A program made the translations under genes and the position numbers. A DNA stretch of 64,000 nucleotides, from assembly GCA_029260615.1 (NCBI GenBank), contig JAJDCX010000034.1, forward strand, positions 62,001 to 126,000, written 5' to 3'. The notes under the pieces were generated by a model. It was not told the origin of the DNA and did no database searches. It saw only the letters and a list, made by a program, of their open reading frames with translations. Numbering within the stretch: the stretch's first letter is position 1; the number at the start of each line of letters is the position of its first letter. The DNA comes from Phycisphaeraceae bacterium. Its GTDB lineage: Bacteria; Planctomycetota; Phycisphaerae; Phycisphaerales; Phycisphaeraceae. Shown one piece after another: positions 21,488 to 63,103 of the stretch.

Positions 21488-21568
21488 ATCATGAGGTGGG
21501 GGCTTTCCGATGCGTCATTCGTCAGATAGGATGCGCCATGTGGGCCGTTGATAGACAGAGAATTACTT

Positions 21569-22867
21569 ATGAGTCAGACAAATCCATCCAAACGCTTCGC
21601 CGAGTTCTTTGCCGGAATCGGGTTGGTTCATGAGGCGTTGAAGGGCTCTGGATGGGACTGTGTGTACGCCAACGATATCGACCCGAAGAAAGAGGCGATG
21701 TACAAGGGGCACTTCGGTCCCAGTCCGTACTTCTACCTAGAAGACGTATGGCAGACCGAGCAGATCGTTGAGGAGATCAAGGAAAGTGTATTCCTGGCTA
21801 CAGCATCGTTTCCGTGTACCGATTTGTCGCTTGCAGGGAATTGGGAGGGATTCGAAGGTGATCACTCCTCTACATACTTCGGTTTTATCCGCGTTCTTCA
21901 ATCGCTTGGTGGTCACAAGCCGAAAATCGTGATGTTGGAGAACGTGACTGGCTTTCTGACATCGAAGGGTGGCGAAGATTTCGCCAGAGCCGTATCTGCC
22001 CTTGCAGCGGAGGGCTATTGGATCGACTGTATTGTGCTTGACGCAAAGTCGTTTGTGCCGCAAAGCCGCCCCCGTGTGTTTGTAATCGGATTCCATGAGT
22101 CATTACAGTCCGAACGGATAATTCGCCAGGTAAAAAACGGGTGGTTCGGTGATGGATGGCAAGCGGCCATAGACTCAGCCGATTCGCTTCGACCAGATTC
22201 ACTACTACGGTTGATGGCCAAGACTGAGCTTTCGACAGGATGGGCAACGCTTACGCTACATCCCCCAAAACAAACGAAATACTCACTAGCATCCTTCATC
22301 GACACCGATGACGATCAATTATGGTGGGACAAAGCCGCGAACGATAAGCACTACGCGATGCTCTCCGATCTCCACCGCAAGGAAGTGGAAAACCGCTGCA
22401 AGGCAGGCGGGCTACATGTGGGTACGGTGTATCGGCGGTGTCGGTATAACAAAATGCGAGCCGAAGTCAGGTTTGACAATGTTGCGGGCTGTTTGCGAAC
22501 ACCACGAGGCGGAAGTGCTCGTCAGATTGTAATGATCATCGACGATGCAAGAGTCCGGTTCCGCTGGATGTCGCCACGAGAGTATGCTCGGCTTCAAGGA
22601 TCGCCAGATTTCACACTTGCCAAGAATACAACCCAGTCACTGTTCGGATTCGGGGACGGCGTATGTGTTCCAGTAATCCGCTGGTTAGACCAAAACATCC
22701 TAACACCAGTGTACGAGGACGAAATGACTTCCACAGGGCATATAGATTGTGCGAAGATACAGGGAAGAAATGGTGCGAGTTCAGTTCCGAAGCGAAATGT
22801 CGGGGCTATCAAAGAAGCTGAGGGCCTGACACAGCAGATCACCCAACGGGTTGACGCGACTCAGTAG
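21569..22867 (+). CDS. DNA cytosine-5 methyltransferase of the R-M system
   Basis: 432 residues from ATG 21569. Motif I is FAGIG (14-18). Motif IV has the catalytic Cys83 in SFPCTDLSLAG. Motif VI is LENVTGF, motif VIII is PQSRPRVF, and motif X reads FGFGDGVCVPV, with Asp where many enzymes have Asn. The target-recognition region lies at about 215-330. It protects host DNA from the divergent endonuclease. The gene is intact and lower in G+C than its neighbours. Confidence 0.93.
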   Translation: MSQTNPSKRFAEFFAGIGLVHEALKGSGWDCVYANDIDPKKEAMYKGHFGPSPYFYLEDVWQTEQIVEEIKESVFLATASFPCTDLSLAGNWEGFEGDHSSTYFGFIRVLQSLGGHKPKIVMLENVTGFLTSKGGEDFARAVSALAAEGYWIDCIVLDAKSFVPQSRPRVFVIGFHESLQSERIIRQVKNGWFGDGWQAAIDSADSLRPDSLLRLMAKTELSTGWATLTLHPPKQTKYSLASFIDTDDDQLWWDKAANDKHYAMLSDLHRKEVENRCKAGGLHVGTVYRRCRYNKMRAEVRFDNVAGCLRTPRGGSARQIVMIIDDARVRFRWMSPREYARLQGSPDFTLAKNTTQSLFGFGDGVCVPVIRWLDQNILTPVYEDEMTSTGHIDCAKIQGRNGASSVPKRNVGAIKEAEGLTQQITQRVDATQ

Positions 22868-25919: not shown

Positions 25920-27428
25920 TTATAGATAACTGGTAGCGGTAATGCACTCGGCCCCGGCTTCGAGGTTGATGACCATGTACCGAAGCGCGTCGCAGAGATG
26001 GTCGGGGCCGTCTTTGATGGGCTCTTGTCGCTGGGGGTTGTCTACATCGAAGTGGTAGCACCGCATGGCTTCGATCAGATTTTTACACCGCGGGTGTATG
26101 CGTAAGGTGTGTCGGTCGAGTCTGCGTCTGATGCGTTCGATGCCGTCGCGTAGGGAAGAGCGTTTTGTTTTTACGGTGTGGCCGAGTTTTCGCAGGGCCT
26201 GCACGTCACTGATGCCGGTGTGGCTGTTGCGTTGGTTCCCTGCGGGATCGACCCCGAGCCAGTCTGTGTGGGGCCAGCCGTTTAACGATGCTTGTCGATC
26301 GATTGCCTGCATGTGCTGATCGAAAGTCACGCCGGCCCGGATGTATTCGCCGAGGATGTGCAAGATGGGTTCATCGTTTTGGTCATCGGATTGGTGGAGG
26401 TGCGCCCAGAGCATGACGGTTGGGTTGCGTAGGCCGAAGTCCATGCCGCCGATCCATTGGCCCTGGTTGTCGTGTGGGTCTTCTTCGCGGACGTGTTTGG
26501 TTGGGTCGAATTCTGGGTAGACGCAGTCGCTGACCTGGGGTTGTCGGCACATCATCTCGACGGACCAGGCGCGTCGGCTGGTTCGGTGCCACTGTCTAAC
26601 GAGGTCATCGACGGGTATAAACCCGATGGCGTCTTTAGCCAATCCGCGGCAGTCATCCCAGAGAACGCATCCGTTGCAGGGCCTGGCCTTGGGGCATTGT
26701 TCGATCACGTCCAGCGCGGTCCACTTGAAGAGTTTTGATGCGCCGGGTTTGTTGTTTTGGAAGCCGTCGGTGATTTTTGCCATGAGTCCGAAGGGGCGGT
26801 GCATGGTGGAAAGTGCTTCGACTGCGCCGTGTACGAGTTTGTCGCCGCAGGGCCCGGAGCGGGTGACCATTTGGGCGGCCTCCCATACGCCGGGCTCGAA
26901 TTCTTCGACCTCGTCGCAGCGTAGTTTGTGGACGCGGACGCCTCGGACGGAGCGTTGGGAGCCGGCGAGTAGCTGGGCTTTGCTGCCGTTGATAAGGGCG
27001 ACTCGGCGTTGTGTGGGTTCGCCATCCAAGAGGCTGCGGAACCAGGGGCGATCAAGGAGGGCGGTGAGGTGTTCGAACATTTTGGAGGATTGTTCGAGTG
27101 ATCCGCCGAGGATACGGATTTGGATGCCGGGTTTGAAAAGGAGGTCCAGGAGTGTGGCGGCTGCGCCGAGCATGGTTTTGCCGCCGCCGCGGTTGGCCCA
27201 GATTACAGCGTCTTTGTTGGCTGGTGTTGTGGCGGCTTGGTTCTGCTCGAAGAAGGTATGGATCAGGTAATCAAACGGGGCGCTGCTGCCTTCGACCAGG
27301 GGGACACGGGGGACGGTCATTCCCAGGGCGACGCGGACAAAGCGGTGTAACTGGTCGGGTGTCTTAGGTTCCAGTGAAAGGAGTTGTGTTGCGGGGTTGA
27401 TGGGTTTGTCAGGATGTCGTTTAGTCAT
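25920..27428 (-). CDS. Phage terminase large subunit
   Basis: 502 residues from ATG 27428, overlapping the small-subunit gene by eight bases. The ATPase half has Walker A ANRGGGKT (78-85) and Walker B KLRCDEVEEF (168-177). The RNase H-like nuclease half has Asp330 in GGMDFGLRNP, then GVDPAGN and the C-terminal DGPDHLCDALRY. Between them is a four-cysteine motif CPKARPCNGCVLWDDC (Cys245, 251, 254, 260), possibly a metal or Fe-S site. It packages DNA into capsids. No portal gene adjoins it; the portal is 24 kb to the right. Confidence 0.92.
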   Translation of the reverse strand: MTKRHPDKPINPATQLLSLEPKTPDQLHRFVRVALGMTVPRVPLVEGSSAPFDYLIHTFFEQNQAATTPANKDAVIWANRGGGKTMLGAAATLLDLLFKPGIQIRILGGSLEQSSKMFEHLTALLDRPWFRSLLDGEPTQRRVALINGSKAQLLAGSQRSVRGVRVHKLRCDEVEEFEPGVWEAAQMVTRSGPCGDKLVHGAVEALSTMHRPFGLMAKITDGFQNNKPGASKLFKWTALDVIEQCPKARPCNGCVLWDDCRGLAKDAIGFIPVDDLVRQWHRTSRRAWSVEMMCRQPQVSDCVYPEFDPTKHVREEDPHDNQGQWIGGMDFGLRNPTVMLWAHLHQSDDQNDEPILHILGEYIRAGVTFDQHMQAIDRQASLNGWPHTDWLGVDPAGNQRNSHTGISDVQALRKLGHTVKTKRSSLRDGIERIRRRLDRHTLRIHPRCKNLIEAMRCYHFDVDNPQRQEPIKDGPDHLCDALRYMVINLEAGAECITATSYL

Positions 27429-27903
27429 CGTTGGCACCTGTTCGCTGGGTGGTTGCGGTGAGTGCCAGGTTGTTGTTTTCGGTTGATGCGTTGTAGAGGA
27501 GGTCTCGGAGTGAATCGACATTTGCGATGGGGTCTTTATCCAGGGCGCGGACGGTGAAATCGTTGTTGACATCTGCGCGTTTAAGATCGAGTTTTAAGAG
27601 GTCGATGCAGGCGCGTCTGGACATGTCCAGGCTGGTCTTTGAGTCTTGGGGTTGGTTGGTTGCGAGTTCGAAAAGTTTTCCGGCTGCGATCAGTCGGTAT
27701 CTACTTAGAAGCAACTGGGTCTGGAGGTCCGCCAGGACACACAGGCCCGCGAGGCAGCGGTGGTTGTCTTCGTCCTGTATCCACTTGGACAGGCTGTCCG
27801 GTGACAGGGCGTACTTGCTGTGTAAGGCGGTGAGATCGAAGTTTGAATTGATCAGGTCGTCAATCAGGGTGGCGCGGCGTTTGGCGCTGATTCTTTTGGG
27901 CAT
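27421..27903 (-). CDS. Probable terminase small subunit
   Basis: 160 residues. An N-terminal HTH-like segment (ISAKRRATLIDDLINSNFDLTALHSKYALSPDSLSKWI) resembles the DNA-recognition end of small terminases. A helical middle part is followed by a polar tail. Identification relies on this layout and on the eight-base overlap with the large-subunit gene. It would select DNA for packaging. A general HTH protein is the alternative. Confidence 0.65.
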   Translation of the reverse strand: MPKRISAKRRATLIDDLINSNFDLTALHSKYALSPDSLSKWIQDEDNHRCLAGLCVLADLQTQLLLSRYRLIAAGKLFELATNQPQDSKTSLDMSRRACIDLLKLDLKRADVNNDFTVRALDKDPIANVDSLRDLLYNASTENNNLALTATTQRTGANDD

Positions 27904-28038: not shown

Positions 28039-28674
28039 TTAGTCGGGTAAGTTGGATGTATTGGATTCAGTGTGTTGGTTCAGCAGGCTCATGAGAGCTT
28101 CTTCACGCGATCCGCCCAGCGTGTGGAGGGCTTTGTTGAGTTGTTGTTTTTGGTGGGGCAGCAGGAAGAAGTGCACGGCCAGGGGCATCTGTTCGATGGG
28201 TTGAGGGGGGCGGGGTGAGGGGGGGCGGCCGTTGATCTCAAGGAGTTTTTTGAGCTGGTCTTTGCGCTCCGGGAGGAGGTCGGCGAGGGAGGCGAGCTTG
28301 AACTGCTCGGTGAGTAATCCGACCAGGTTGGCGCGCTTGCGTGGATCGTCCTGTCCCTGGAGGCGGTTGAGTGATGCCAATAGGACGAGGGCTTGATTGT
28401 CGTCGGCCTGCCAGATGACACACTGGGCGGTGTGGTGCTCGAGTCGGCGCAGGGCGATGACGCGGTGGTGGCCGTCGAGGATCTGGTAGGTGTGGGTGTC
28501 TGTCGTTGATGGGTCGCTGTTGCTTTTGTCGTTGAGTGGTCGAACGATCAGGGGGGGGTAGTTCCCGGTGCGTTGGATATGGTTGGCGAGTTTTTCGATC
28601 AGGTGATCGGGCATGACGTTGCTGTTGGCGGGGTGTGGGCGGAGGTTGTCGAGTTTGAGGGTTAGTGTTTGCAT
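28039..28674 (-). CDS. ParB-like (ParB/Srx fold) protein in the phage module
   Basis: 211 residues from ATG 28674. The N terminus has LTLKLDNLRPHPANSNVMP, and the core motif YQILDGHHRVIALRRLE replaces the GERR of true ParB with DGHHR, as in ParB-like nuclease or sulfiredoxin-fold proteins of phages. A helical region and a C-terminal tail follow. No parS-binding HTH is evident. Such proteins occur in phage DNA-modification and packaging neighbourhoods; the activity here is unknown. It lies between the GNAT gene and the terminase genes. Confidence 0.75.
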   Translation of the reverse strand: MQTLTLKLDNLRPHPANSNVMPDHLIEKLANHIQRTGNYPPLIVRPLNDKSNSDPSTTDTHTYQILDGHHRVIALRRLEHHTAQCVIWQADDNQALVLLASLNRLQGQDDPRKRANLVGLLTEQFKLASLADLLPERKDQLKKLLEINGRPPSPRPPQPIEQMPLAVHFFLLPHQKQQLNKALHTLGGSREEALMSLLNQHTESNTSNLPD

Positions 28675-28687
28675 GATGTATGGAGGT

Positions 28688-29485
28688 TTAGGCGGGTGTG
28701 GTGGGGGTGTTGTGGTGGAGGTAGTAGACGGGTTCGAGCATGAGGCGTTGCCGGGCGGTGCGTAGGTGTGTCGCTGGGTCGGTGCTGTGGACAACGGATC
28801 GACCACCATTTTGTCGGTACCAGCGGTAGAGTTCTTTGTGGAACCATTGCTGCTGTGTGGGGGCGAGGGCATAGATTTTGGATTGCATCTGTTCGAGGGA
28901 GGCGAGGGCGTTGGGGGTTAGGCCAAGGGATTGCATGGCGTCGGTGAGTCTTTGGTCGAAGGCGTGGGGGGGGCGGTGGTAGGCGGTCATGCCGGCGCGT
29001 TGGAAGAAGGGGTTGACTTTGCCCATGGCGGCGAGCGCTTCGGTGTATAGGGTTGTGGGTTTGTCGAGTGCTTCTTTGACCAGTCGGACGGCCAGGCCGA
29101 TGCCGCGCCAACAGGGGTGGACGACGACTCGGCTGATGACTCGGACCTCACGGTTTAGGAGAGTTGCCCGCTGTCGGGGGGGCAGCCAGTTGCCGTACCT
29201 TTCGTGGAGTGCCCAGTTGCGGAGTGTGCATGAAAGGCTTGGGAGTGATTCGATGAGTACGGCGACGGTTTGATGGCCGATGGGTTTGGCTAGGAATCGT
29301 TGGGCGACAGACCGGGATGGGCAGCGCAGGGCCAGGACGCGGGTGGCGGTTGCGGGTCGGTCGGCGCGGTAGTGGTGTTCTTTGAGCGCGTGGTAGTCGG
29401 CTAATGAACCTTGCACCAGTTGGAGGTCTTCGTGGGGTTTGGCATTGGGCGGAGCTAGGAATCGTTGTTGGATAGGGGTTGTCAT
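28688..29485 (-). CDS. GNAT-fold acetyltransferase, partner of ABC ATPase
   Basis: 265 residues. The GNAT core is seen in VRVISRVVVHPCWRGIGLAVRL (strand 4 and acyl-CoA loop, about 115-140), followed by YTEALAAMGKVNPFFQRAGM. The C-terminal 80 residues are helical and Trp/Tyr-rich. Its start overlaps the ABC ATPase stop by four bases (ATGA), so translation is coupled. The pair equals the two halves of COG2401, an ABC ATPase fused to an acetyltransferase. The substrate is unknown; a base or protein modification linked to packaging is conjecture. Confidence 0.8.
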   Translation of the reverse strand: MTTPIQQRFLAPPNAKPHEDLQLVQGSLADYHALKEHHYRADRPATATRVLALRCPSRSVAQRFLAKPIGHQTVAVLIESLPSLSCTLRNWALHERYGNWLPPRQRATLLNREVRVISRVVVHPCWRGIGLAVRLVKEALDKPTTLYTEALAAMGKVNPFFQRAGMTAYHRPPHAFDQRLTDAMQSLGLTPNALASLEQMQSKIYALAPTQQQWFHKELYRWYRQNGGRSVVHSTDPATHLRTARQRLMLEPVYYLHHNTPTTPA

Positions 29486-30159
29486 TGGGCGGGCCTTTCG
29501 ACCAGGTCTAATGATTCGCCGAGGTGTTTTTCGATGAGTGTGTTGGGGGCGAGGGGTTCGAGCAGGTCATCGTGCGTGGTTGCGGCGACGAAACAGACGT
29601 CGGCGTGGGTGACCCATTTGCGGAGATTTCGCGCGAGGACTTTGGCGGTGACACGGTCGAGCGTGGAGCAGAATTCGTCGGCGAGGATAATTTTTAGTTT
29701 GGTGGGCATGACGTCGGCTTGGGCCATGGCCATGGTTTGTGCGAGTCGCAGTCGGTAGCGTTGGCCGTCGGATAGTTGGGAGGGTTTGCGGAGCATGACG
29801 AAGGCGTCGTTGAGGCCCGCGAGGCTGAGTAGTTGGAGGGTCTGGCTGAGCGTGCGGTTGGGGAAGACATCGACGAGGGGTTTGTCTTGTAGTTTGGGGA
29901 GGGCATCGAAGTTTAGAACGTGGGCGTGGGGGTGCTGTTGGGTCTGCTGGTGGATGAGTTTGAGGATGGTGGATTTGCCACTGCCGCTTGCGCCGGTGAC
30001 AAAGATGAGATGGCCTGGGGCGAGGTTTAGGTGAGTTTTGGGGATGAGTTGGATGGGCCGGTCGTGGTCGATCCCCAAGCCGAACATGGTGGCGACTTCC
30101 AGGACGTTTGGGGTGGGCTGCACGGCTGAGGGGACGGTGTGTTCGAGGGTGAGTTCCAT
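29482..30159 (-). CDS. Soluble ABC ATPase, partner of GNAT protein
   Basis: 225 residues from ATG 30159 (GGAG six bases upstream). Walker A GASGSGKST at 56-64, signature QLSDGQRYR, Walker B KIILADEFCSTLD and an H-loop ATTHDDLL. There is no membrane partner gene, so it is not a transporter. It resembles the ATPase half of COG2401 proteins and probably acts on DNA or drives its GNAT partner. It belongs to the leftward phage operon. Confidence 0.82.
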   Translation of the reverse strand: MELTLEHTVPSAVQPTPNVLEVATMFGLGIDHDRPIQLIPKTHLNLAPGHLIFVTGASGSGKSTILKLIHQQTQQHPHAHVLNFDALPKLQDKPLVDVFPNRTLSQTLQLLSLAGLNDAFVMLRKPSQLSDGQRYRLRLAQTMAMAQADVMPTKLKIILADEFCSTLDRVTAKVLARNLRKWVTHADVCFVAATTHDDLLEPLAPNTLIEKHLGESLDLVERPAQ

Positions 30160-30268: not shown

Positions 30269-30685
30269 TCAGACAAACACGCGGGCGGTGACCTGAACGG
30301 TGTTCATGTCTTGTCGTACCCGGTAAAGAGAGATGCCAGAGACTTGGGATGCTTTTCGCATGCTCAGGCCGTCGAGGACGACGTATTTGGCGGTAGTGCG
30401 GACATTGAGGGGGAGGGACTCCATCTGGATGGCCACGAACTTGAAAGTCTTGTTTGACAGGCGTTTAATGATTGATGAGGCTTTTCGCTGGAGGTGTCTG
30501 GGGGGTCTTTGGTAGAGTCTTGCGAGCTGGGCGATTTTGAGGTCTCCGCTGAGGACCTGGTGGATAAAAATCTTGTCTGGCTTGGGGAGGTATTCTGCCA
30601 GTGCGAGTAAATCGTCGACCTGCTGCCGTTGGATGTGACGGCGGTGGTGAGCGAGGGTGGAAAGGTTGCTCAGTTGGTGTTGCAT
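30269..30685 (-). CDS. HTH protein, probable phage transcription regulator
   Basis: 138 residues from ATG 30685. Two HTH-like segments are visible: LKIAQLARLYQRPPRHLQRKASSIIKRL (about 50-78) and LSMRKASQVSGISLYRVRQDMNTV near the C terminus. The layout recalls sigma-region-4-like or late-gene regulators of phages, but no family is certain. It is the first gene of the leftward operon and is divergent from the CI-like repressor. Confidence 0.6.
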   Translation of the reverse strand: MQHQLSNLSTLAHHRRHIQRQQVDDLLALAEYLPKPDKIFIHQVLSGDLKIAQLARLYQRPPRHLQRKASSIIKRLSNKTFKFVAIQMESLPLNVRTTAKYVVLDGLSMRKASQVSGISLYRVRQDMNTVQVTARVFV

Positions 30686-30792
30686 GGGGTTGCGGCCCGG
30701 ATTAGTTTGGGTTATGTTAGGTATTAAACCCGAGGCCGGCATCCGTGTCAAGGAATGTTTGATATATTTTGAACAAAGTTTTGAGGTCTGAC

Positions 30793-31644
30793 ATGCAAAC
30801 GGTAGGCGAACTGATCCGGGCGCTACGGCTGGAACGTGGGCTGACGCTGTCGGCGTTGGCGGAGGCGATCGGGTCGACCAAGGGGTATCTCTCGATGATC
30901 GAGAATCATCGGGTGGCTCAGCCGCCGTCGGGGGCGCTGCTTAGGTCTTTGGAGGCCGTGTTGGGGGTGACGGATGGGCGTTTGCATCTGACGGGTGATT
31001 TTGAGCGGGCTCCCGAGGTGGTGCGTGAGGAGGTTGAACGGCTGACGGGTGATGTGCAGCGGGGGCGTGATCTTGCGCGCTTTATCAAAGACTCTGCGGG
31101 GGGGCGTGGTGAGGGGAAGAATCTGGATGAGCTTTACCGTAGTGGGGAGCTTCGTCGGCGGATCGAGCGTGCGCTTGGGACTGAGCAGGGGGGCGCGGGG
31201 GGTGCGGGTATTTTGTCGGGCGAGGCAGGGGATGGCGGTGTTGCTTTGAGCCGTGTGCCGTTGGTGAACAAGGTGGCGGCGGGTTATCCCAGTGATTTCA
31301 CGGACTTGGATTACCCTGCGCGGGTGGCGGATGATTATTTGAGTTGTCCGGGGCTGAATGATGTGGATGCTTTCGCTGCGGCGGTGGTTGGGGAGTCGAT
31401 GATGCCGGAGTATCGGGAGGGAGATATCGTGGTGTTTTCCCCGGCGGCGGATGTGTCCGATGGGTGCGATTGTTTTGTCAGGCTTGAGCCGGACCATGAG
31501 ACGACCTTTAAGCGGGTGTTTTTTGACGAGAGTGGTGCTTTGGTTCGGCTGCAGCCTTTGAACCCGAAGTTTCCCCCGGCGGTGTATGGGAGGGAGCGGG
31601 TGGCGGGGCTTTACAAGGCGGTGTGGCGGTACTCGCGGTTGTGA
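30793..31644 (+). CDS. CI-like repressor with S24 (LexA-type) domain
   Basis: 283 residues from ATG 30793 (GAGG seven bases upstream; TTG 30769 possible). An XRE HTH (LTLSALAEAIGSTKGYLSMIENHR) occupies the N terminus, followed by a Gly-rich linker. The S24 peptidase domain has the catalytic Ser in VVGESMMPEYREGDIVVF and Lys in TTFKRVFF. Such repressors keep phage genes silent and self-cleave on RecA activation. It is divergent from the packaging operon. The GTGCGCAC element does not occur in its own promoter gap but lies 3' of it. Confidence 0.88.
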   Translation: MQTVGELIRALRLERGLTLSALAEAIGSTKGYLSMIENHRVAQPPSGALLRSLEAVLGVTDGRLHLTGDFERAPEVVREEVERLTGDVQRGRDLARFIKDSAGGRGEGKNLDELYRSGELRRRIERALGTEQGGAGGAGILSGEAGDGGVALSRVPLVNKVAAGYPSDFTDLDYPARVADDYLSCPGLNDVDAFAAAVVGESMMPEYREGDIVVFSPAADVSDGCDCFVRLEPDHETTFKRVFFDESGALVRLQPLNPKFPPAVYGRERVAGLYKAVWRYSRL

Positions 31645-31744: not shown

Positions 31745-31873
31745 CATTGTGCGCACAAAAGTGGTTTAGTGCTGGTCTATATCGCGGATAACGGTTTGAT
31801 ATGGCGGGGTTAAAACGTATTTGGAGAAGTAGAGATTTTTGTGGCGGGAATGGGTCGATTTGTGCGCACAAAA
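31745..31873 (-). promoter_or_regulatory. GTGCGCAC composite element, copy B
   Basis: Two palindromes, TTGTGCGCACAA (31747-31758, centre 31752.5) and TTTGTGCGCACAAA (31859-31872, centre 31865.5), 113 bp apart. Read on the minus strand from the second, ACAAAAAT starts at 31842, exactly 25 nt after the GCGCAC. On this strand the element faces the repressor and the packaging operon. Confidence 0.75.
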
Positions 31874-51050: not shown

Positions 51051-51328
51051 AGACCGCTCATTAAATCATCAGCCGGGCATGTGTGCAAACGCTGGTTGTC
51101 GGTTTTGTGCGCACAAAACCGAACATAAACCATACAAAAATTCCAAAAAGTGCAAAAATCGTTTTGGTTTGTCGTTGCAGGACTTAATTCAGTCTGAGAT
51201 TGCGATTGGTCGCTTTTGTGCGCTAATTGTTGACGCGTTGGCCAAGAGTGAAGGGTCAACACATTGGCCAGGGCCAGACGGGCCCGTCTCCCAAGCGACA
51301 CGTTACCTGCCAGCGAGTGATATTTACG
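51051..51328. other. Divergent control region before the particle genes
   Basis: 278 bp between the sigma54 activator and portal genes. It holds the most complete copy of the composite element. Repeated TTGGCCA motifs follow at about 51236 and 51260. No clear -24/-12 sigma54 promoter was found. Confidence 0.6.
51079..51226 (+). promoter_or_regulatory. GTGCGCAC composite element, copy C
   Basis: A perfect 20-bp palindrome GGTTTTGTGCGCACAAAACC (51101-51120) is preceded 26 bp upstream by a GTGTGCAAA half-like site and followed at 51134 by ACAAAAAT (25 nt from GCGCAC) and at 51150 by GTGCAAAAAT. The distal TTTTGTGCGCTAA is centred at 51221.5, 111 bp from the main palindrome. It directly precedes the portal gene. 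Confidence 0.8.
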
Positions 51329-52804
51329 ATGAGCCACCCGACCGATCATCCCGTTCCCAGCACCCTTGGACCTGACTTGCTGGATTCGCTAATCGAGGAG
51401 CACCGCGGTTGTACCGAGCCTCGGCTTCGGCGCCTCTGGGACTACTACCGGAATCCCGCGAGGTCCAGCATTGACGGGAAGGTTGGCGTGCTTGCGCAAG
51501 AAGCCGGGCTGCCCCAGAGATTGACCAAGGCGAAAGCGGTCGGTGGTCTGGGTGTGGAGGCCGAGCGTGAGGTCGTGATAGAAAACGACATCGCCTGGCG
51601 GATGCATACCCAGGTCGATTTCATGTTCGGCAAACCGCTGTCGATTCAGAGCATCGCCAAAGACCCGGCCCGGGCAAAGAAGATCCAACGGTTCCTTCGC
51701 CGAGTCATCAAAGCGAATGGCGGGGAGCGGTTTTTCCAGGACCTGGGGTTACTCGGCTCGGTTTACGGGTTTGTGGATGTGTTGGTGCGCGTTACTGACA
51801 CACACAAGACCCCATTGAGTGACGGGGTATCCGACGCCGATCGGCTTGTACTTGAAACCATCGAAGCCCCCCGGGCCATCCCACTACTTAGCCAGCAAGA
51901 CTACCGCCGACTTGACGCCTACGCCCTGCACTTTTGCCGAAGGACATCACAGGTCGAACAAAACCATTTCCTAACCAGGGTTCGCAACCGTGTCCTTGGC
52001 GGGTCGGGGCGTAGGCAGCGGTCGGTGGTCGAGCATACCCAGGTCTGGACTGGGCAGATGATCCAGAGCTTTGTCGGTCAGCCTGGGACGTTTGGGGGTG
52101 GTCGAAAGCTGGTGGAACAAGAAGTCAATCGGCTTGGGCGCATCCCCGTCGTGCATATTCAGAATCTATCTCAGCCATTCTTCTACGAGGGGTTAAGTGA
52201 GGTGGAGCCTTTGATTCCGTTGCAGGACGAGTTGAATACACGCCTATCGGATCGCGCTAACCGGGTGACATTTCAGTCTTTCAAGATGTACCTGGGCAAG
52301 GGGATCGAACATTTTACGGACCGCCCAGTTGGGCCCGGTCAGATGTGGGCGACCGACAACCCCGACGCTTCGATTACGGAGTTCGGCGGCGATGGGAACA
52401 ACCCCTCCGAAGAGGCTCACATCAACGAGATCCGTGAGGCGATGGACAAGGCCAGCGCGGTCAGCCCGCTGGCGACGGGGCTGTTGCGTGCCAGGGTCGG
52501 CAACCTCACCAGTCAGAATGCGTTGCGGATCGTGCTGATGGGGCTTCTTGCGAAGGTTGAAAAGAAGCGCCTTACCTATGGCGATGGGATCGAGCGCATC
52601 TGCGAGTTGTTGTTGCATGCTGCGGATGTGTACGGCCTGTTCCCGAACAGCCCGGAAGAACGGGGTGTTCGTTTGGATTGGGCGGAGCCGTTGCCGGATA
52701 CGGATTCGGAGCTTTTGCGGAACGCGTTATTGAAACTTGAGGCGGGTGTTCCTCGTCATCAGGTCCTGACTGAATTGGGCTATGCCGACCAGGCCGGGGT
52801 TTAG
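51329..52804 (+). CDS. Phage portal protein (SPP1 gp6-like)
   Basis: 491 residues from ATG 51329. The N terminus YYRNPARSSIDGKVGVLAQE... resembles SPP1-type portals, with the wing and clip region in the middle and DELNTRLSDRANRVTFQS near residue 290. The C-terminal half has ERICELLLHAADVYGLF. It forms the dodecameric ring through which DNA is packaged. It is the first gene of the rightward particle module. The terminase it must contact is at 25.9-27.9 kb. Confidence 0.85.
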   Translation: MSHPTDHPVPSTLGPDLLDSLIEEHRGCTEPRLRRLWDYYRNPARSSIDGKVGVLAQEAGLPQRLTKAKAVGGLGVEAEREVVIENDIAWRMHTQVDFMFGKPLSIQSIAKDPARAKKIQRFLRRVIKANGGERFFQDLGLLGSVYGFVDVLVRVTDTHKTPLSDGVSDADRLVLETIEAPRAIPLLSQQDYRRLDAYALHFCRRTSQVEQNHFLTRVRNRVLGGSGRRQRSVVEHTQVWTGQMIQSFVGQPGTFGGGRKLVEQEVNRLGRIPVVHIQNLSQPFFYEGLSEVEPLIPLQDELNTRLSDRANRVTFQSFKMYLGKGIEHFTDRPVGPGQMWATDNPDASITEFGGDGNNPSEEAHINEIREAMDKASAVSPLATGLLRARVGNLTSQNALRIVLMGLLAKVEKKRLTYGDGIERICELLLHAADVYGLFPNSPEERGVRLDWAEPLPDTDSELLRNALLKLEAGVPRHQVLTELGYADQAGV

Positions 52805-52877
52805 CGGTCGAGTTGCGCGACGGGATAAGCACACTTTCGGGCAGAAGCCCACGACTTTTCTTTACGGGAACAAAACC

Positions 52878-53405
52878 ATGACTGACAGCCTGGTGATTGA
52901 CACACAACCCAAGACCCCCCTGGCAGACAACGATAAGCCCGATCAGGTCGGCGGTGCGGACAGACTCGTGCCGGTGGGTGAAGCGATCCGTTATCGAAAG
53001 CGGGCGCAGACAGCCGAGCAGCAGCTCGAAGATCTTAACGAAGAGGTCCGCGTGATGCGGGCGAAGCTGAATGAGGCCGACGAAACTATTGTTGGTTTGG
53101 AGCGTCGCCAGAAGGTTGATTCGTTGCTTACGGAAGCGGACGCGATTGATTTGGAGACGGCTCGGTTGCTCACCGAGCAGGCGGTGACCCAGATGGACGA
53201 TCCCGAGATTGAACTGGTGGTCAGTGATCTGAAACGGCACAAGCCTTTCTTGTTCCGCCACAAGCAGTCACAGGGTTTCTCCGCGATGGCCCCGAGTATC
53301 GAGAACCATGGCCACGACCCGGCCGAGCAGGCTGCGGAGCAGGCGACCAAAACCGGTGATCGCCGAGACCTGTTGCGCTACCTGAGGCTTCGCCGTCAGC
53401 ACTGA
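52878..53405 (+). CDS. Capsid scaffold protein
   Basis: 175 residues from ATG 52878. Highly charged with a central coiled coil (AEQQLEDLNEEVRVMRAKLNEADETI, about 45-75) and acidic/polar ends. The position between portal and capsid genes is the classic scaffold location. No protease domain is visible. It would guide capsid assembly. Confidence 0.75.
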   Translation: MTDSLVIDTQPKTPLADNDKPDQVGGADRLVPVGEAIRYRKRAQTAEQQLEDLNEEVRVMRAKLNEADETIVGLERRQKVDSLLTEADAIDLETARLLTEQAVTQMDDPEIELVVSDLKRHKPFLFRHKQSQGFSAMAPSIENHGHDPAEQAAEQATKTGDRRDLLRYLRLRRQH

Positions 53406-53478: not shown

Positions 53479-54648
53479 ATGCCATTTACAGGTAAAGCTA
53501 CCTACTCCGCGGGGGCAAGCCTCCCGGAACTCGTCGAAGATGTCTCGGACATCATCAGTATTGTCAGCCCGTTTGAGACGCCTCTGTTGAATCACTTGGG
53601 TGACCCCCAGCGATCGGCAAGCAGCACGGTGCATGAGTGGCTGGAGGATTCACTCCTGCCGAACACCGACATTATTCAGGACCCGATCATTTCCGCCCCG
53701 TTGACCGACACCACATTCACGATTGGTAACGGTACGCGGTTTAGGGTGGGCGATCAGATCCAGGTTGCCACGTCTAAAGAGGTCCTGTTCGTGACGGGAA
53801 TCTCCGGCAATGATCTGACCGTGGTCCGTGGGTACGGCGGAACGGTGGCCGAAAGTCTTGTGGACGATTCCACGATCCGTATCCTGGGCAACGCGGCATT
53901 GGAAGGAGACGATGCACCGGCGGCACGGTTTACAAGCCGGGCGCGACGATCAAACTACACCCAGATTTTTACTTCGTCGGTCGAGGTGTCCGGGTCGCAG
54001 ATCGCGTCTAAGCAGATCGGCCTTTCCGACGAGTTGGATTACCAAAAACAAGAGCGGCTTCGAGAACTAATCCGTGACTTGGAAAATTGCGTGGTCAACG
54101 GTGTCGCAGCATCCAGCAACCCCGAGGGCACCGCGTCTATCAGGCGGACCATGCAGGGGATTGTCCCTAGCATCCAGACCAATGTCTTCACCAATGGGAT
54201 CGGCGGTTTTCCCTCCGGGGTCGGCGTTGGGACAGACCAGTTGACCGAGGACCAGATCAATATGGCGTTACGCTTGATCTGGGACCAGTCGTCCGGCTCG
54301 ATCGACACGATCCTGGTCGGTGGATTCCAGAAGCGTCGTATCAACAGCTTCATCACCAGCGGGCGAGGGTATGACGAGAGCTCGACCCGCTTCCGCGACC
54401 TGGTGAGTACTTACGAATCGGACTTCGGCGTTTGCCGGGTAGTCCTGTCGCGGTGGGTTCCTCAAGACGCGGTGCTGCTGCTGGATTCTTCACGTATCGA
54501 CGTCATGCCGCTGACAGGGCGGAGCTTTGGCTTCAAGAAACTGGCTTCAACCGGTGACAGTGAATCCGGCCAAGTGATTGGTGAGTACACCACCGAGGTG
54601 CGCAATGAACTTGGGCACGGCGTGATCCGCGGTCTCGCTGCCAGTTAA
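53479..54648 (+). CDS. Major capsid protein (SU10/DUF5309-like)
   Basis: 389 residues. Features of the HK97-fold SU10-like family: N-terminal LPELVEDVSDIISIVSPFETPLLNHLG, a beta insert around 75-140, KQIGLSDELDYQKQERLRELIRDLENCVVNG, and a C-terminal GFKKLASTGDSESGQVIGEYTTEVRN. It follows the scaffold by 73 bp and has a good ribosome site (AAGGA). This gene best shows that the cluster is of phage origin. Confidence 0.88.
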   Translation: MPFTGKATYSAGASLPELVEDVSDIISIVSPFETPLLNHLGDPQRSASSTVHEWLEDSLLPNTDIIQDPIISAPLTDTTFTIGNGTRFRVGDQIQVATSKEVLFVTGISGNDLTVVRGYGGTVAESLVDDSTIRILGNAALEGDDAPAARFTSRARRSNYTQIFTSSVEVSGSQIASKQIGLSDELDYQKQERLRELIRDLENCVVNGVAASSNPEGTASIRRTMQGIVPSIQTNVFTNGIGGFPSGVGVGTDQLTEDQINMALRLIWDQSSGSIDTILVGGFQKRRINSFITSGRGYDESSTRFRDLVSTYESDFGVCRVVLSRWVPQDAVLLLDSSRIDVMPLTGRSFGFKKLASTGDSESGQVIGEYTTEVRNELGHGVIRGLAAS

Positions 54649-54782: not shown

Positions 54783-55421
54783 ATGAACTTCTCAACCGAC
54801 AGAGACTTGCTTGCGATTGAACCGGCGGTGTTCGAGGACGTGCCCTTTGCGGCCCAGAGGCGGGTGAGCGTAGCTGATGGTTCGGTCATCGGGACCACAC
54901 TTACCAGTGCGGCTGCGGATTTTGTGTCTGCCCAGGTCGATGTGGGTGCGGTGGTTCTGGTGGGTGGTGTGCCGCATGAGGTGCTGGCGAGGACTGACGT
55001 GAACACGCTGGCTATATCGCTGCCTAGGACACATACGACCGACCCCGGGATTCCGGGTGGTGATGGTGTGGGGTTGAATGTGGTGGTGCAGACTTTTTCT
55101 CCCCAGGCGGGGTTGGTCCACGACGGGTTGCTGCGGCTGATAGGCTTGGCCCCAGATGACCCTGATCCCGGGTTGACCCAGTCGGCGGTGCTTTCACTGT
55201 CGTTGATGGCACGGCTCGAGGCGTTGGGCACGCTTGAGGTGGTTTACTCGGGGGCAGCGTCTTTAGTCGGGGACAACGACACGCTATTGATGAAAGCGGG
55301 GGAATATCGCAGGCGGTTTCGCCAGGCTTGTGCGGGAGCGACGTTGTCACTGGATACCGACGGTGACGGGTTGGCTGACAGGCGTTTATCGTTGGGTACG
55401 ATTCACTTTACCCGCGCCTGA
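54783..55421 (+). CDS. Head-tail connector-like structural protein
   Basis: 212 residues. A beta-rich N-terminal half with GIPGGDGVGLNVVVQTF, then a helical C-terminal half. Placed directly after the capsid gene, it is a probable adaptor or head-completion protein. I recognise no family. Confidence 0.55.
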   Translation: MNFSTDRDLLAIEPAVFEDVPFAAQRRVSVADGSVIGTTLTSAAADFVSAQVDVGAVVLVGGVPHEVLARTDVNTLAISLPRTHTTDPGIPGGDGVGLNVVVQTFSPQAGLVHDGLLRLIGLAPDDPDPGLTQSAVLSLSLMARLEALGTLEVVYSGAASLVGDNDTLLMKAGEYRRRFRQACAGATLSLDTDGDGLADRRLSLGTIHFTRA

Positions 55422-55451: not shown

Positions 55452-55820
55452 ATGGTGACTTTTGATAACGAACTGCTGTTTGGATTGGGCGTGGCAAGCT
55501 TCAAGATTGGCCCGGTCAAATTGCGTCATACGGTCCAGCACCCGCCGGGGTCACGGGGTGTTCGGCTCGACGGGCAGGGAACCGAAGCCAGGCGGATAAA
55601 CCAGGCGGGTGTACTTGTCGCCAACACGACAGTCGAGCTTCAGGCACAAATTGATGCGATTGAAAACAGGATTGATGGGATTGCCCACACGTTGGTAGAT
55701 AACGTTGGTCGTGTTTGGAACGACGTCGTTTTGCTTGAGCTCGATAGGGATCCGTTTGAGAGAGTCGGGGCTCGCTGGAAGACCGCGTACCGCACTAAGT
55801 ATTTACAGGTGATCCCTTGA
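55452..55820 (+). CDS. Small phage structural protein
   Basis: 122 residues. A beta-rich start with GPVKLRHTVQHPPGSRGVRLDGQG, a helical segment (about 55-80) and a C-terminal RTKYLQVIP. Position and composition suggest a connector or tail component. Family unknown. It overlaps the next gene by four bases. Confidence 0.55.
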   Translation: MVTFDNELLFGLGVASFKIGPVKLRHTVQHPPGSRGVRLDGQGTEARRINQAGVLVANTTVELQAQIDAIENRIDGIAHTLVDNVGRVWNDVVLLELDRDPFERVGARWKTAYRTKYLQVIP

Positions 55821-56545
55821 GTAGTTTTATCACCACAGACGCGACGCAGGACGTCTTTGGCCTGGTCCTCGCCCGTCCGGTTGTCACCGCTGCGGGGGAA
55901 CACCCGTGGCTGATTCATCTCTGGTGGCTTGCGCCGTTTCAGGATGATCGTCTGGTGCAGATTTATGTGCAGGGGGAACTCTACGATGTGACCCTCGATC
56001 CGGCTGTGCGAGAGATTTGTTTGGTGCTGGATCGCACGAGGCAAAACCGGATCGAATTGCTAGCGGTTCCGGCGGATGATCCGCAGGCGGTGTGGCGTCC
56101 GCAGCCTGACTTGCTTGGGTCGTGGGGGCCTGCGATTTCAAGTGTAGCCGAGGTGGTTCTGGTGCGTGATGAGATGTTGCCTTCGGATACCCAACTTGTG
56201 GTAGAGGTTGATGGGAAGGGCGTTGATCGCGGGGCGATGTGGCCACAAGACCAGAACCGATCTGGTTTTGGGAACCCCTTGGGGCAAGACGATGAGGCTG
56301 GGCTTGGTGTGGGGGTGGGGGGGCTGGGTGTGGGGCCGTTGGGTGGCGATGGAACCGTGTGGCGTTGGCGTAGAGATGGCTTGGGTCTCGGGAGCCATGA
56401 GATCAAAGTCAAAGCGGTGGATCGCACTGGCGCACCGGTAGCAAACCCGGTTTTGATTGAAGGTGTACAGGTCGAGAGTCTGCCTGATCCGGTATCCGGT
56501 TTAACCATCGACCCGTCTTTTCATCTGTCATGGGCACTGGTTTAG
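55817..56545 (+). CDS. Tail-associated protein, unknown
   Basis: 242 residues starting at TTG 55817, overlapping the previous stop (TTGA). Beta-strand-rich; a Gly-rich low-complexity stretch (GLGVGVGGLGVGPLGG, about 160-178) divides it. No enzymatic motif. Translational coupling to the preceding gene supports the unusual start. Confidence 0.6.
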   Translation: MSSFITTDATQDVFGLVLARPVVTAAGEHPWLIHLWWLAPFQDDRLVQIYVQGELYDVTLDPAVREICLVLDRTRQNRIELLAVPADDPQAVWRPQPDLLGSWGPAISSVAEVVLVRDEMLPSDTQLVVEVDGKGVDRGAMWPQDQNRSGFGNPLGQDDEAGLGVGVGGLGVGPLGGDGTVWRWRRDGLGLGSHEIKVKAVDRTGAPVANPVLIEGVQVESLPDPVSGLTIDPSFHLSWALV

Positions 56546-56600: not shown

Positions 56601-57053
56601 ATGCCGATCCAAGAACTCACATCCGATCAGATTGATAGCCTTGTCGGTACGCGCCACCCATCGACAGGTATCGAGTATCCGCCGAATGGTTTGCAGCCAT
56701 ATTACTATTGGCTGCTACGAGCGTTGCACCTACTATCAGAATCATCGTTTGGCGAGCTGAGGGTCGCCGAGGACGATTCGTCTGTGACGGCGATCCAGAT
56801 TGCGCCTGGCCGGGTGACCATCTCGGGTGTGGTGTTGGTCTTCCCGGGACAAATCAACGATTTGTCGCTGTTTAACAATGACACGGTGAACGTGTGGTTA
56901 CGTGACAACGCGGGGTCGCCGGAGGTCGGGGTCAATGCCGACGCCAGTGGTTGGCCCGTGACCCCACACATCAAACTCGCCAAGGTCACGCTCGCCGCGG
57001 GCGTGATATCCAGCATCCTTGACCGGCGATTCGAAACCGTATTCAGCATCTGA
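56601..57053 (+). CDS. Small tail/fibre-associated protein
   Basis: 150 residues. An N-terminal helical segment followed by beta structure (VTAIQIAPGRVTISGVVLVFPGQIND). Sits before the LamG genes, as fibre-attachment proteins do. Family unknown. Confidence 0.5.
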   Translation: MPIQELTSDQIDSLVGTRHPSTGIEYPPNGLQPYYYWLLRALHLLSESSFGELRVAEDDSSVTAIQIAPGRVTISGVVLVFPGQINDLSLFNNDTVNVWLRDNAGSPEVGVNADASGWPVTPHIKLAKVTLAAGVISSILDRRFETVFSI

Positions 57054-57088: not shown

Positions 57089-57841
57089 ATGACGACACTC
57101 AAACATAATGACTTTCAGGTCCCCGGTTGGGGCGAGTTTCAGCAAGGTCCACAACCAAGACCCGGTTACCGATCCCAGGTTTTGGAAGACTCGCCGCTGA
57201 TATATTTGCGGCTGGGCGAATCTTCTGGGCCAACAGCCTACGATGAAACCGGGTCGCACAATGCGACGGAAGAAGGTGCGATGAACTGGGGGCTTGCTGG
57301 GGGATTACGGCACGACGATGACACGGCGGTTGGTTCGCCGGCGACAGGTGGGTTGTCTGTCAATTCGACCGGCTGGCTGCCGACCGGGTCCGATCCAAGA
57401 ACGGTTGAGTTTTGGTTCCGACCAAATGTGGCGACTTCTCCATTGTTTGGTATCAGTTATGGGGGAGGGGCGTCTGGCATGATAGTCTTTGTGTATAGCG
57501 CTGATGGACTGGTTGTTTCCGTTGGCACCAGCGGAATTGGAGGTCTTACGGCCGACCTTTCTGGCCAATGGCATCACGCCGCGTTCGTGTTCCCGTCCGG
57601 TTCAACTCGCCTCGATGAATTTGTTATCTATATCGATGGTGAGCCGATCACCATGCAGGTATTTTTTGGGAGTGGAGCCACGCTGATAAATACAACCGAT
57701 TCACCGCTCCTGCTAAATATGTCTGGGGACGGCTTCTACAACAACTGTGAGATCGACGAAGTGGCGGTCTATGGCACGGCGTTGTCGTCCCAGCGGGTGA
57801 AGGAACACTATGACACGGCCAAAGGCCGGGTGGGGCAGTAA
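57089..57841 (+). CDS. LamG/concanavalin-like tail fibre protein
   Basis: 250 residues. Concanavalin A-like jelly roll from about residue 25: YLRLGESSGPTAYDETGSHNATEEG at the front, then VEFWFRPN, WHHAAFVFPSG, FVIYIDGEP and CEIDEVAVYGTALSSQRVKEHY, which are typical LamG_3 landmarks. Probably a receptor- or carbohydrate-binding protein of the particle. It overlaps the next gene by one base (TAATG). Confidence 0.8.
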   Translation: MTTLKHNDFQVPGWGEFQQGPQPRPGYRSQVLEDSPLIYLRLGESSGPTAYDETGSHNATEEGAMNWGLAGGLRHDDDTAVGSPATGGLSVNSTGWLPTGSDPRTVEFWFRPNVATSPLFGISYGGGASGMIVFVYSADGLVVSVGTSGIGGLTADLSGQWHHAAFVFPSGSTRLDEFVIYIDGEPITMQVFFGSGATLINTTDSPLLLNMSGDGFYNNCEIDEVAVYGTALSSQRVKEHYDTAKGRVGQ

Positions 57842-59985
57842 TGGCAACGACGATCACGCAAGCTGCTTTGGCATCATTCCCCGACAGGCCAAGCGCTAGC
57901 GGCGTCGGGCTTCTGGCCACATTGGGCTTGGGGGGAGATGGTGAATACCTTGTCAACTCCTTGGAGACGGAGCAGGAGGTGTTCCATCTTCGTTTTGTGA
58001 TGAACCCGGCAAGCTTGGCCGGGGGCGAGGTGGCGATGTTTGTGGGGTTTGACTCGGGCGGTGTTGAACGATTCCGTGTTAGTTACGACGCAAATACGCG
58101 GCTGCTTTCGATTAAGCTTGCGAGTCTAAATACGCTTAGCGTGACTCTGGATGGCGTGCTCCCGTGGCAGTGCGTCGAAGTGGGTATTAATTCGATTGCC
58201 GGCCAGGCAGACTTGTGGCTAAACGGGGTCTTGGCGGACCAGGCATCGGGTTCTTTCTCGCTATTGAAAGTACAAGCCGTGTGGCATGGCGTCATCTTCA
58301 AGGACACTTCTCTGGCGGGTGATTTATATCTCGATGAGGTTTGTTTCGGGGATAGTTATATCGGAACGGTTGTTGTAACACCGATCAGCCCTTACGCCGA
58401 TGCGTCTGGCCGTTGGCTAGTGGTTTATAACACGGCCGACCCGGACGCTATGGCTTGGGTTGAGGCATATCGCCAGGCACGAGGCGTCCCGTTTGCGAAT
58501 CTTCTGGGTCTTAACTTATCGATTGTAGAAACGATTAGCGCGGCTGAATACGCCAATCTAGTTTCTGCTGTCGATGATTATCTGACGAGGAACAATCTTG
58601 ACAGCGAAGTGATGGGCGTCTTGCTGGGCTATCGAGTTCCAGGCTATGTGGATTTTACCGGGGTCGGATTTTTTGAAGCAGTGCCAGCTCTGATGCAAAC
58701 CAGCTCGGTTGCGGCGGGCTCTGTAACTAACACAAATGCTTTGCCGATCCCATCAACCCGCTTGACACACAGCGACCTCGCGGGAGATCGCATGACCGCC
58801 AGGATCGACGGGCAGGATATTTCGGGGGCCAACCTGATTGTAGACCGGTCGACCGCGTTGTTGGCCTCCGGCCTTGCCGGGGATGACTCGGCTATCTACT
58901 TCGATCCGTTTGTTGGCAACAACCCGTCTTACCAGCAGGCCTTCGGAGACATGCTTGGTTGGGCGACCGGCCTGCGTGGGATGCGGACCCGGCTCCCGAT
59001 CGTTTTAAGCGGGGACCCCAGCGGCAATGTAGAGGTGAGTTTTTCATCGGTGTCGGGCGACGGGGTTTTCTGGGGCTGGTCATCTGCGTTGCCGGACGCT
59101 GATATCTTCGCCGCACCGGCGGGTAGGCGGGCAGTTTGTGGTCAAATGTATCTCGGGGGTGCATCGGCAACTACGTTACGCGGAGTTGTGCCGAGCAATT
59201 GGGCCGACACGCCTATGGATGCCGGGTATGCCTGCACCATCGTGTCATCCCGAGATAATCCGGTGCCGTCGATCCCGGACGCGGGTGCTTTTTTTGACGC
59301 CCTGAATATAGGATGGACTGTAGGCGAGGCTTGGCATGCGGCCCAACCAGCATTGCGCAGTGGGTTCTACCTCGTGGGTGACCCGTTGATGACGGTCTCC
59401 ATGCCACGTGAGGGGTTTGAGATCTTCGGCCCGTTGCAGAGCGTTAAAGATCTGGACCCGGCATCACAGTTGCTTGTACTGCCTGCCGGCACGATTGAAG
59501 CGAATGTGTCGATTGCACTCCCCGCCGAGGGATCAGCTGCGACATACATGGTCCGTCGCACAGATGTGCTGGGGCGTGCCGAGGCATCGGTCACTTCGGC
59601 CCGGGTAGTCAATGTGGGTGGCGTAGCAAAGTTCGCTTCATCGTTGCCGGTTTGGCCAGACAGCACTGATTGGCCCGTTGCTTTGGAGGCAGGTTCGGTG
59701 TGCCCAGCCATTTATTGGGGCGGGCCGCTGGGATCGATGCGCGTTTCAACAGTGGAGTTGCTTAGTCAACCCGAAGGCGGGGCCGAAGCGATCACCGCGC
59801 AGCCCACATTTGATTCACGGGACGAGCACATCAAAGTCACGACAGCCATCCCGCTTGTGAAGACTCGATACCGTTGGCGGATCACCTCACTCGATGGGAT
59901 CGTACAACACACGGATTGGTCAGTTTGGGCTGAGCCGCCGACCACACCCACTCTTAGCCTTCAACAGATTGGAGCGGACATTTGA
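57841..59985 (+). CDS. Large particle protein: LamG-like plus TIGR03790-like domain
   Basis: 714 residues. The N-terminal 170 residues are another LamG-like jelly roll. The middle (about 190-500) resembles the planctomycete TIGR03790 family: WLVVYNTADPDAMAWVEAYRQARGVP, then YLTRNN..DSEVMGVLLGYRVPGYVD and a late TVGEAWHAAQP and GDPLM block, whose function is unknown. The C terminus is a fibronectin-like beta domain. A host-type domain in a tail gene is unusual and may mediate surface attachment or cleavage. No catalytic residue can be assigned. Confidence 0.7.
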   Translation: MATTITQAALASFPDRPSASGVGLLATLGLGGDGEYLVNSLETEQEVFHLRFVMNPASLAGGEVAMFVGFDSGGVERFRVSYDANTRLLSIKLASLNTLSVTLDGVLPWQCVEVGINSIAGQADLWLNGVLADQASGSFSLLKVQAVWHGVIFKDTSLAGDLYLDEVCFGDSYIGTVVVTPISPYADASGRWLVVYNTADPDAMAWVEAYRQARGVPFANLLGLNLSIVETISAAEYANLVSAVDDYLTRNNLDSEVMGVLLGYRVPGYVDFTGVGFFEAVPALMQTSSVAAGSVTNTNALPIPSTRLTHSDLAGDRMTARIDGQDISGANLIVDRSTALLASGLAGDDSAIYFDPFVGNNPSYQQAFGDMLGWATGLRGMRTRLPIVLSGDPSGNVEVSFSSVSGDGVFWGWSSALPDADIFAAPAGRRAVCGQMYLGGASATTLRGVVPSNWADTPMDAGYACTIVSSRDNPVPSIPDAGAFFDALNIGWTVGEAWHAAQPALRSGFYLVGDPLMTVSMPREGFEIFGPLQSVKDLDPASQLLVLPAGTIEANVSIALPAEGSAATYMVRRTDVLGRAEASVTSARVVNVGGVAKFASSLPVWPDSTDWPVALEAGSVCPAIYWGGPLGSMRVSTVELLSQPEGGAEAITAQPTFDSRDEHIKVTTAIPLVKTRYRWRITSLDGIVQHTDWSVWAEPPTTPTLSLQQIGADI

Positions 59986-61774: not shown

Positions 61775-62047
61775 ATGCCATTGGAATTTTTACAACCCCT
61801 GACCCAGTTCGGTGTCGCCGGGCTGATGGGCCTGCTCTGGGTGTGGGAACGCCTGATGTCTCGCAGGCGTGAAACACAGCTCAACGAAACCCACCACCGC
61901 CTGATGAGTCAGCACCACGAATTGAACGTATTGGTCAAACTTGTTCGTCAGAACACACGCGCGATGGTCCGGTTCGATCAGACGCAGCTACAACTCAAAG
62001 AACTACTGGAGAAGATGCACCATGAGATCGATCGCAAAGCGGCTTAG
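61775..62047 (+). CDS. Inner-membrane holin or i-spanin-like protein
   Basis: 90 residues with a membrane helix near the N terminus (about 10-27), followed by a long charged helix. The layout fits an inner-membrane spanin (Rz-like) or a BhlA-type holin. A strong GGGAGG precedes ATG 61775. The gene overlaps the following lipoprotein gene, as Rz/Rz1 pairs do, which favours the spanin reading. Confidence 0.65.
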   Translation: MPLEFLQPLTQFGVAGLMGLLWVWERLMSRRRETQLNETHHRLMSQHHELNVLVKLVRQNTRAMVRFDQTQLQLKELLEKMHHEIDRKAA

Positions 62048-63064: not shown

Positions 63065-63103
63065 TCTTGATTGACTCGCCCCGCCGACCTATCTTCTGGG
63101 TTG

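Follow-up and report, generated by a model that had tools for sequence, protein, structure and literature searches.

A candidate gene transfer agent of Phycisphaerae (Planctomycetota), split between two chromosomal loci and carrying an ABC-GNAT-ParB module in its packaging operon

The window analysed here is a stretch of 64,000 nucleotides from contig 34 of a 3.76-Mb Phycisphaerae MAG. Between 25,920 and 31,644 it carries a phage-type packaging cassette in the order S24 repressor, HTH-ABC-GNAT-ParB(DGHHR)-TerS-TerL. The genes from HTH through TerL occupy 30,685 to 25,920 of the minus strand, and the repressor diverges from them at 30,793:

25920-27428, minus strand: terminase large subunit TerL, ATPase and nuclease (phrog_5653, 2.6e-17; long ORF to 27572)
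27421-27903, minus strand: putative TerS
28039-28674, minus strand: ParB/Srx-like protein with DGHHR (PF02195, 5e-4; phrog_498/phrog_723, ~6e-14)
28688-29485, minus strand: GNAT-fold acyltransferase (phrog_886, 2.6e-14; AlphaFold model with pLDDT 86 and a GNAT fold)
29482-30159, minus strand: soluble ABC ATPase (PF00005, 1.3e-10; phrog_293, 3.4e-28)
30269-30685, minus strand: small HTH protein, weakly sigma region 4-like (NCBIfam sigma-70 models, 0.012-0.046; long ORF to 30751)
30793-31644, plus strand: S24/LexA-like repressor (PF00717, 1.6e-14; HTH_3, 9e-10; long ORF from 30769)

The original prediction had grouped the ABC ATPase, GNAT and ParB-like genes with the terminase genes. All these genes are present, and the grouping is more than chance since the order keeps them together as one block in single copy. 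That prediction overlooked the operon's repressor-HTH end, as well as the virion locus that the window holds at 51-64 kb. The ABC ATPase likely starts with the ATG at 30159 and stops at 29482; a hydropathy scan detected no membrane-like segment in it (19-residue maximum 1.10), and its Walker A, LSDGQ and DE motifs are kept across an alignment of 36 rows. The predicted four-base overlap with the GNAT gene is found at 29482-29485. The GNAT alignment excluded L049, L060, L065, L068 (stop codons) and L070, and included L066 and L053. The ParB-like gene lies in a long ORF (28039-28872) and probably begins at 28674, after GNAT. Canonical ParB proteins, which act in chromosome partition, are marked by a GERR motif. 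In place of this ParB CTPase feature, the protein has DGHHR, and an alignment of 31 orthologues shows the replacement pointed out in the original prediction in 30 rows and a gap in the other. The predicted succession of TerS and TerL stands for its second member: Walker A, Walker B and the three nuclease aspartates of TerL, which we take to be the catalytic residues, are invariant in 22 sequences, and an invariant four-cysteine cluster lies between the ATPase and nuclease domains. The first member is assigned by position and conservation only, with no Pfam match, nothing informative in NCBIfam and a sole PHROG match (0.072) to a function-unknown family.

A second phage-derived locus lies at 51.3-63.6 kb of the window, 24 kb from the cassette, past mur and other housekeeping genes (mraY, murF, murE, FKBP, a peptide transporter, lgt, RNase R and a sigma-54 activator). 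It opens with an SPP1-type portal gene, which is present in 27 of 30 cassette genomes. The counts below refer to 33 virion loci picked by the presence of portal or capsid, so that the value of 33/33 for the portal holds by construction:

51329-52804, plus strand: portal protein, SPP1 type (PF05133, 1.1e-17; phrog_64, 4.8e-25)
52782-53405, plus strand: scaffolding-like protein between portal and capsid (phrog_2303, 0.0024; 32/33 loci)
53479-54648, plus strand: major capsid protein, SU10 type (PF17236, 7e-87; phrog_1328, 4e-79; 31/33 loci)
54783-55421, plus strand: conserved core virion protein, perhaps a neck or adaptor ring (model pLDDT 91; 30/33 loci)
55452-55820, 55817-56545 and 56601-57053, plus strand: three accessory virion genes (11-16/33 loci), the last matching tail collar phrog_31611 (3.7e-4)
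57089-61757, plus strand: LamG-domain protein (PF13385, 9e-14) and two large tail-/adhesin-like proteins (57841-59985 and 59982-61757; 7-11/33 loci)
61775-62044, plus strand: small coiled-coil membrane-like protein, spanin-/holin-like (Rz-like spanin phrog_89, 5.5e-4; 28/33 loci)
62022-62519, plus strand: lipoprotein-like gene overlapping the preceding one (N-terminal hydrophobic segment, 1.82)
63071-63637, plus strand: second conserved lipoprotein-like gene (22/33 loci)

The model of the 54783-55421 protein resembled phage neck proteins only weakly; a structure search returned no PDB match below E 0.001 and one match in the viral library (9.1e-4) that bears no useful name. The overlap of the 61775-62044 and 62022-62519 genes suggests an outer-spanin-like arrangement, the second gene having no PHROG match. 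Neither tape measure nor sheath was recognised, and the head locus is very short in families f2 and f5 and in the cultured strain ZRK32, which has both loci.

Among 61 relatives, GNAT is present in 38 and TerL in 41, in one copy each; additional table rows for these genes are contig ends or fragments of a single ORF. In each of the 38 GNAT-bearing genomes, TerL and GNAT share a contig. TerL occurs without GNAT in three genomes: in G015 and G026 TerL runs to the contig edge, and G049 keeps ParB, TerS and TerL with ABC and GNAT not detected. Most of the fetched loci (38 in all) keep the gene order, and no gene family is conserved around the cassette in these loci except clade-specific flanks (e.g., mqnD and mur genes). 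In G010 and ZRK32, GNAT precedes HTH and ABC. In the window, the mqnD-like gene has a C5 cytosine DNA methyltransferase gene (21548-22867) upstream of it. Of the 80 best TerL matches among named genomes, all but one, titled Cyanobacteria, are records of Phycisphaerae or other Planctomycetota; ZRK34 and ZRK32 are among them with complete chromosomes. After setting aside 26 of these loci with less than 4.5 kb upstream of TerL, 54 remained testable, and the predicted linkage of the ATPase-GNAT pair to TerL is found in all of them. The HTH gene that opens the operon is present in 53, the divergently transcribed repressor in 48, ParB in 41 and TerS, searched with its own HMM, in 29; the last two went undetected in some members of the class. 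A capsid gene near the cassette was found in none of the 54, and a portal stub in one.

The two loci behave as one system. TerL and the SU10-type capsid, the latter found in 36 of the 61 genomes, are both present in 33, with TerL only in 8, capsid only in 3 and neither in 17 (Fisher p 2.5e-6, rising to 1.3e-4 when the six genomes of family f3 are left out). The distance between the loci ranges from 7 to 649 kb in the 19 genomes where both are on one contig, and they lie on different contigs in seven further genomes. Trees of TerL (36 of 39 rows, those longer than 350 aa) and portal (33 rows) recover the GTDB families in four changes, which is the fewest possible; resolution is poor in the capsid tree. 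Compared with RpoB as the one host gene, TerL gives a Mantel r of 0.825, portal of 0.876 and capsid of 0.627 in 26 of 29 genomes (G001 and G004, with no RpoB match, and G031, with a short TerL, were left out). Between TerL and portal, r is 0.882, and in each case 0 of 2000 permutations reached the observed value. In six pairs picked for closeness, omega is 0.01-0.40, mostly below 0.2 (0.03-0.20 for TerL), indicating purifying selection on every gene examined. Thus, both phage-derived loci are chromosomal, single-copy, co-occurring, host-tree-following and under purifying selection.

Several genomes depart from this pattern. The capsid match is absent in eight TerL-bearing genomes, with contig ends in some; the portal was not found either in G023, G027 and the one-contig genome G057. 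On the complete chromosome of ZRK34, no capsid and only a portal stub were found. In ZRK34 and G005, the head cluster is deleted and the terminase operon is kept beside it. TerL has an in-frame TAA in G031, the capsid frame is broken in PNC22 and the portal is fragmentary in G046. The cases of ZRK34, G005, G031 and PNC22 could correspond to recent losses, sequencing errors or a second role of the operon.

We looked for regulatory motifs common to the two loci. A promoter motif at 30702 (minus strand) and 51118 (plus strand) has two exact matches against 0.05 expected; the pattern was built from those two sites, and we rejected it. In a 20-mer comparison over 21 genomes, G004 showed 3 differences (shuffled 3-6) and G000, 4 (shuffled 5-7), with nothing consistent outside the genus. 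Three copies of the palindrome TTTTGTGCGCACAAAA (up to 2 mismatches) are present where 0.19 would be expected: one in the intergenic region between the portal and sigma-54 activator genes (51103-51118), the other two (31745-31760 and 31858-31873) in the stretch separating the repressor from a pilin-like gene.

The cassette thus looks like one half, that for DNA packaging, of a particle of phage origin whose genes are retained in the chromosome and inherited from parent to offspring. Gene transfer agents (GTAs) are defined in PMC9662315 as built of Caudoviricete-derived proteins and packaging mostly random host DNA; their genome is endogenized, often at multiple loci, is not fully packageable in a small head and is inherited vertically, and the DNA is delivered to other cells. 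The system described here has TerL, portal, capsid and scaffold with PHROG or Pfam matches to such proteins, two chromosomal loci with housekeeping genes between them, and a history that follows the host, as judged from the recovered families and the RpoB comparison (26 genomes, one host gene). The distance between the loci makes it likely that the element's own genome cannot be packaged in full. We therefore consider it probable that this two-locus system, known here from its genes, is a GTA of Phycisphaerae, as it fits every criterion that can be read from sequence.

The RcGTA, BaGTA, Brachyspira VSH-1 and FpGTA (Faecalibacterium) likewise have phage-derived TerL, portal and capsid, and are endogenized, vertically inherited and often distributed over several loci (passages of PMC9662315 and PMC12946183). 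In contrast to them, the system described here has a planctomycete host, an SPP1-type portal combined with an SU10-type capsid, an ABC-GNAT-ParB module in the packaging operon and virion genes in a separate short locus. The passages of these two papers that name GTAs mention Alphaproteobacteria, Desulfovibrio, Brachyspira, Methanococcus and Faecalibacterium, and no planctomycete. A literature search, with most subscription journals outside its reach, found no planctomycete GTA. If our reading is correct, it adds a new phylum and an independent lineage to the GTAs. The lineage would be kept throughout much of a bacterial class, would represent a kind of gene-transfer machine that we found undescribed in this phylum, and could be tested in the cultured strain ZRK32. 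According to the relevant passage of PMC10945688, ZRK32 releases ~30-nm hexagonal particles with nitrate or ammonium, which were assigned to a 21.9-kb extrachromosomal phage; some of them may be GTA particles.

The same conserved genes would also serve a domesticated capsid-terminase particle with another job and no gene transfer, such as the killing of kin or rivals, DNA storage or interference with phages. The LamG and adhesin-like proteins that differ between families and the absence of a recognised tail in several families favour such a particle; the intact TerL nuclease and ATPase together with the portal imply, however, that it is filled with DNA, and the GTA definition in PMC9662315 matches every feature testable here, so that we regard this explanation as distinctly unlikely. 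Retention of the operon after deletion of the head cluster in G005 and ZRK34, and distances of up to 649 kb, would agree with an ABC-GNAT-ParB-TerS-TerL operon that works alone (e.g., in DNA modification or repair) beside a portal-capsid locus belonging to a separate element. This is very improbable in view of the co-occurrence of TerL and capsid and of the TerL-portal correlation given above. Moreover, GNAT adjoins portal-scaffold-capsid in G197, from the same class, and L264, from another planctomycete class, has one contiguous repressor-ABC-GNAT-ParB-TerL-portal-capsid cluster.

Least probable of the three is that the loci are old prophage remnants, or a slow mobile element or satellite. 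The broken members G031, PNC22 and G046, and related capsids in other contigs classed as viral, could be read in this way, but every gene examined is under purifying selection, the trees are congruent with that of the host and the cassette is surrounded by clade-specific flanks with no conserved family. The features of an active prophage, i.e., contiguous virion genes and sporadic presence, are replaced here by split loci and an order-wide single copy. The link to phage-type packaging made in the original prediction is thus retained, while the phage genome that it implied gives way to a vertically inherited two-locus chromosomal system. A prophage beside the cassette was considered and rejected: HK97-type portal and capsid genes are sporadic (11/35 and 10/35 genomes) and are parts of other elements. 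One such portal-capsid pair lies on the same contig outside the window (G000 contig 34, 27.5-31.9 kb) and probably belongs to an unrelated prophage.

The ABC-GNAT-ParB module is also known from phages. The phages SSU5, nickie and RHph_N2_6 have the same kinds of genes in the same order, ParB-ABC-GNAT-TerS(-like)-TerL; in the linear record of SSU5, the module is at the end and the TerS-like and TerL genes at the beginning. Unlike the window cassette, these modules belong to complete phages or phage-plasmids and are followed immediately by portal and capsid genes, and the GNAT protein matches the phage records examined with E-values of 1e-6 to 3e-6 and only 23-31% identity. The ABC ATPase and GNAT behave as one functional unit, both being present in all 54 testable loci and encoded by a single ORF in 19. 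They had been predicted to match the two halves of a fused protein, COG2401. Phrog_11143, which matches ABC (1.2e-20) and weakly GNAT (0.009), and the fused ORFs agree with this. The window genes share ABC and GNAT with the COG2401/MK0520-like fused ABC ATPase-acyltransferase and differ from it in being split; that name is carried by two phage records of homologues, and our literature search found no paper on COG2401.

The GNAT-fold Mom protein of phage Mu had been put forward as a precedent. The GNAT model does share the fold with Mom (8bv8, Z 11.8), yet unrelated acetyltransferases of proteins and small molecules tie with it (11.5-12.7), and no Mom chain was among the 5 matches (up to E 1) of a sequence search against solved chains. 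Foldseek placed the RNA cytidine acetyltransferases NAT10/TmcA on top, with a low TM of ~0.35. The model is thus a sound fold that is as compatible with other GNATs as with Mom and has no telling neighbour, and the substrate does not appear readable from the structure. Mom is not known to have an ABC partner in Mu.

A modification of DNA by ABC-GNAT is conjecture, and one already made: a jumbo-phage review, in a passage citing its reference 136, gives an ABC ATPase-coupled GNAT as predicted to acyl-modify a DNA base (PMC7824862). A passage of PMC12839542 says that the ParB-like ATPase DpdB serves the insertion of deazaguanine into DNA. We infer a DNA-directed role of ABC-GNAT-ParB tied to packaging because this phage module persists in a system whose cargo would be host DNA; such a setting also tells apart two ideas on the module, namely escape from restriction and a step in packaging itself.

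If the system is a GTA, relief of the S24 repressor, in an SOS-like induction, would be followed by activation of both loci by the HTH protein. TerS and TerL would then fill small heads with host DNA; particles would be released by the lysis-like genes and the DNA taken up by neighbouring cells. Before or during packaging, ABC-GNAT-ParB would act on the DNA, most likely by base acylation, in which the ATPase would open or scan the duplex and ParB would serve as a DNA-bound NTPase or nuclease. This is the least certain step of the mechanism, and we propose it tentatively, as falling somewhat short of an even chance. A bolder and rather unlikely proposal is that of an ancient planctomycete GTA that chemically marks packaged host DNA, base acylation by ABC-GNAT-ParB licensing or starting terminase packaging or protecting the cargo in recipients, with a particle that may be near-tailless in several families.

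A GNAT profile search of 343 Planctomycetota genomes gave matches in 56, and neighbourhoods were fetched for 20 of these loci. In other classes, family f30 has a fused ABC-GNAT adjoining TerL and family f32, ParB-ABC-GNAT near another type of TerL. In L264 (9369-10774), the ATPase and nuclease parts of TerL are in two adjacent ORFs. In the 44 viral contigs with TerL relatives, neither ABC or GNAT nor a portal or capsid of the kind described here could be detected. In several distant relatives among these viral contigs (L200-L243), the nuclease part of TerL matched 1-4 kb upstream of the ATPase part, corresponding to a split and reordered terminase. Among other contigs filed as viral, L324 and L325 encode capsids 59-62% identical, with otherwise different surrounding genes, and L326 corresponds to the virion locus of the system described here, classified as a virus.
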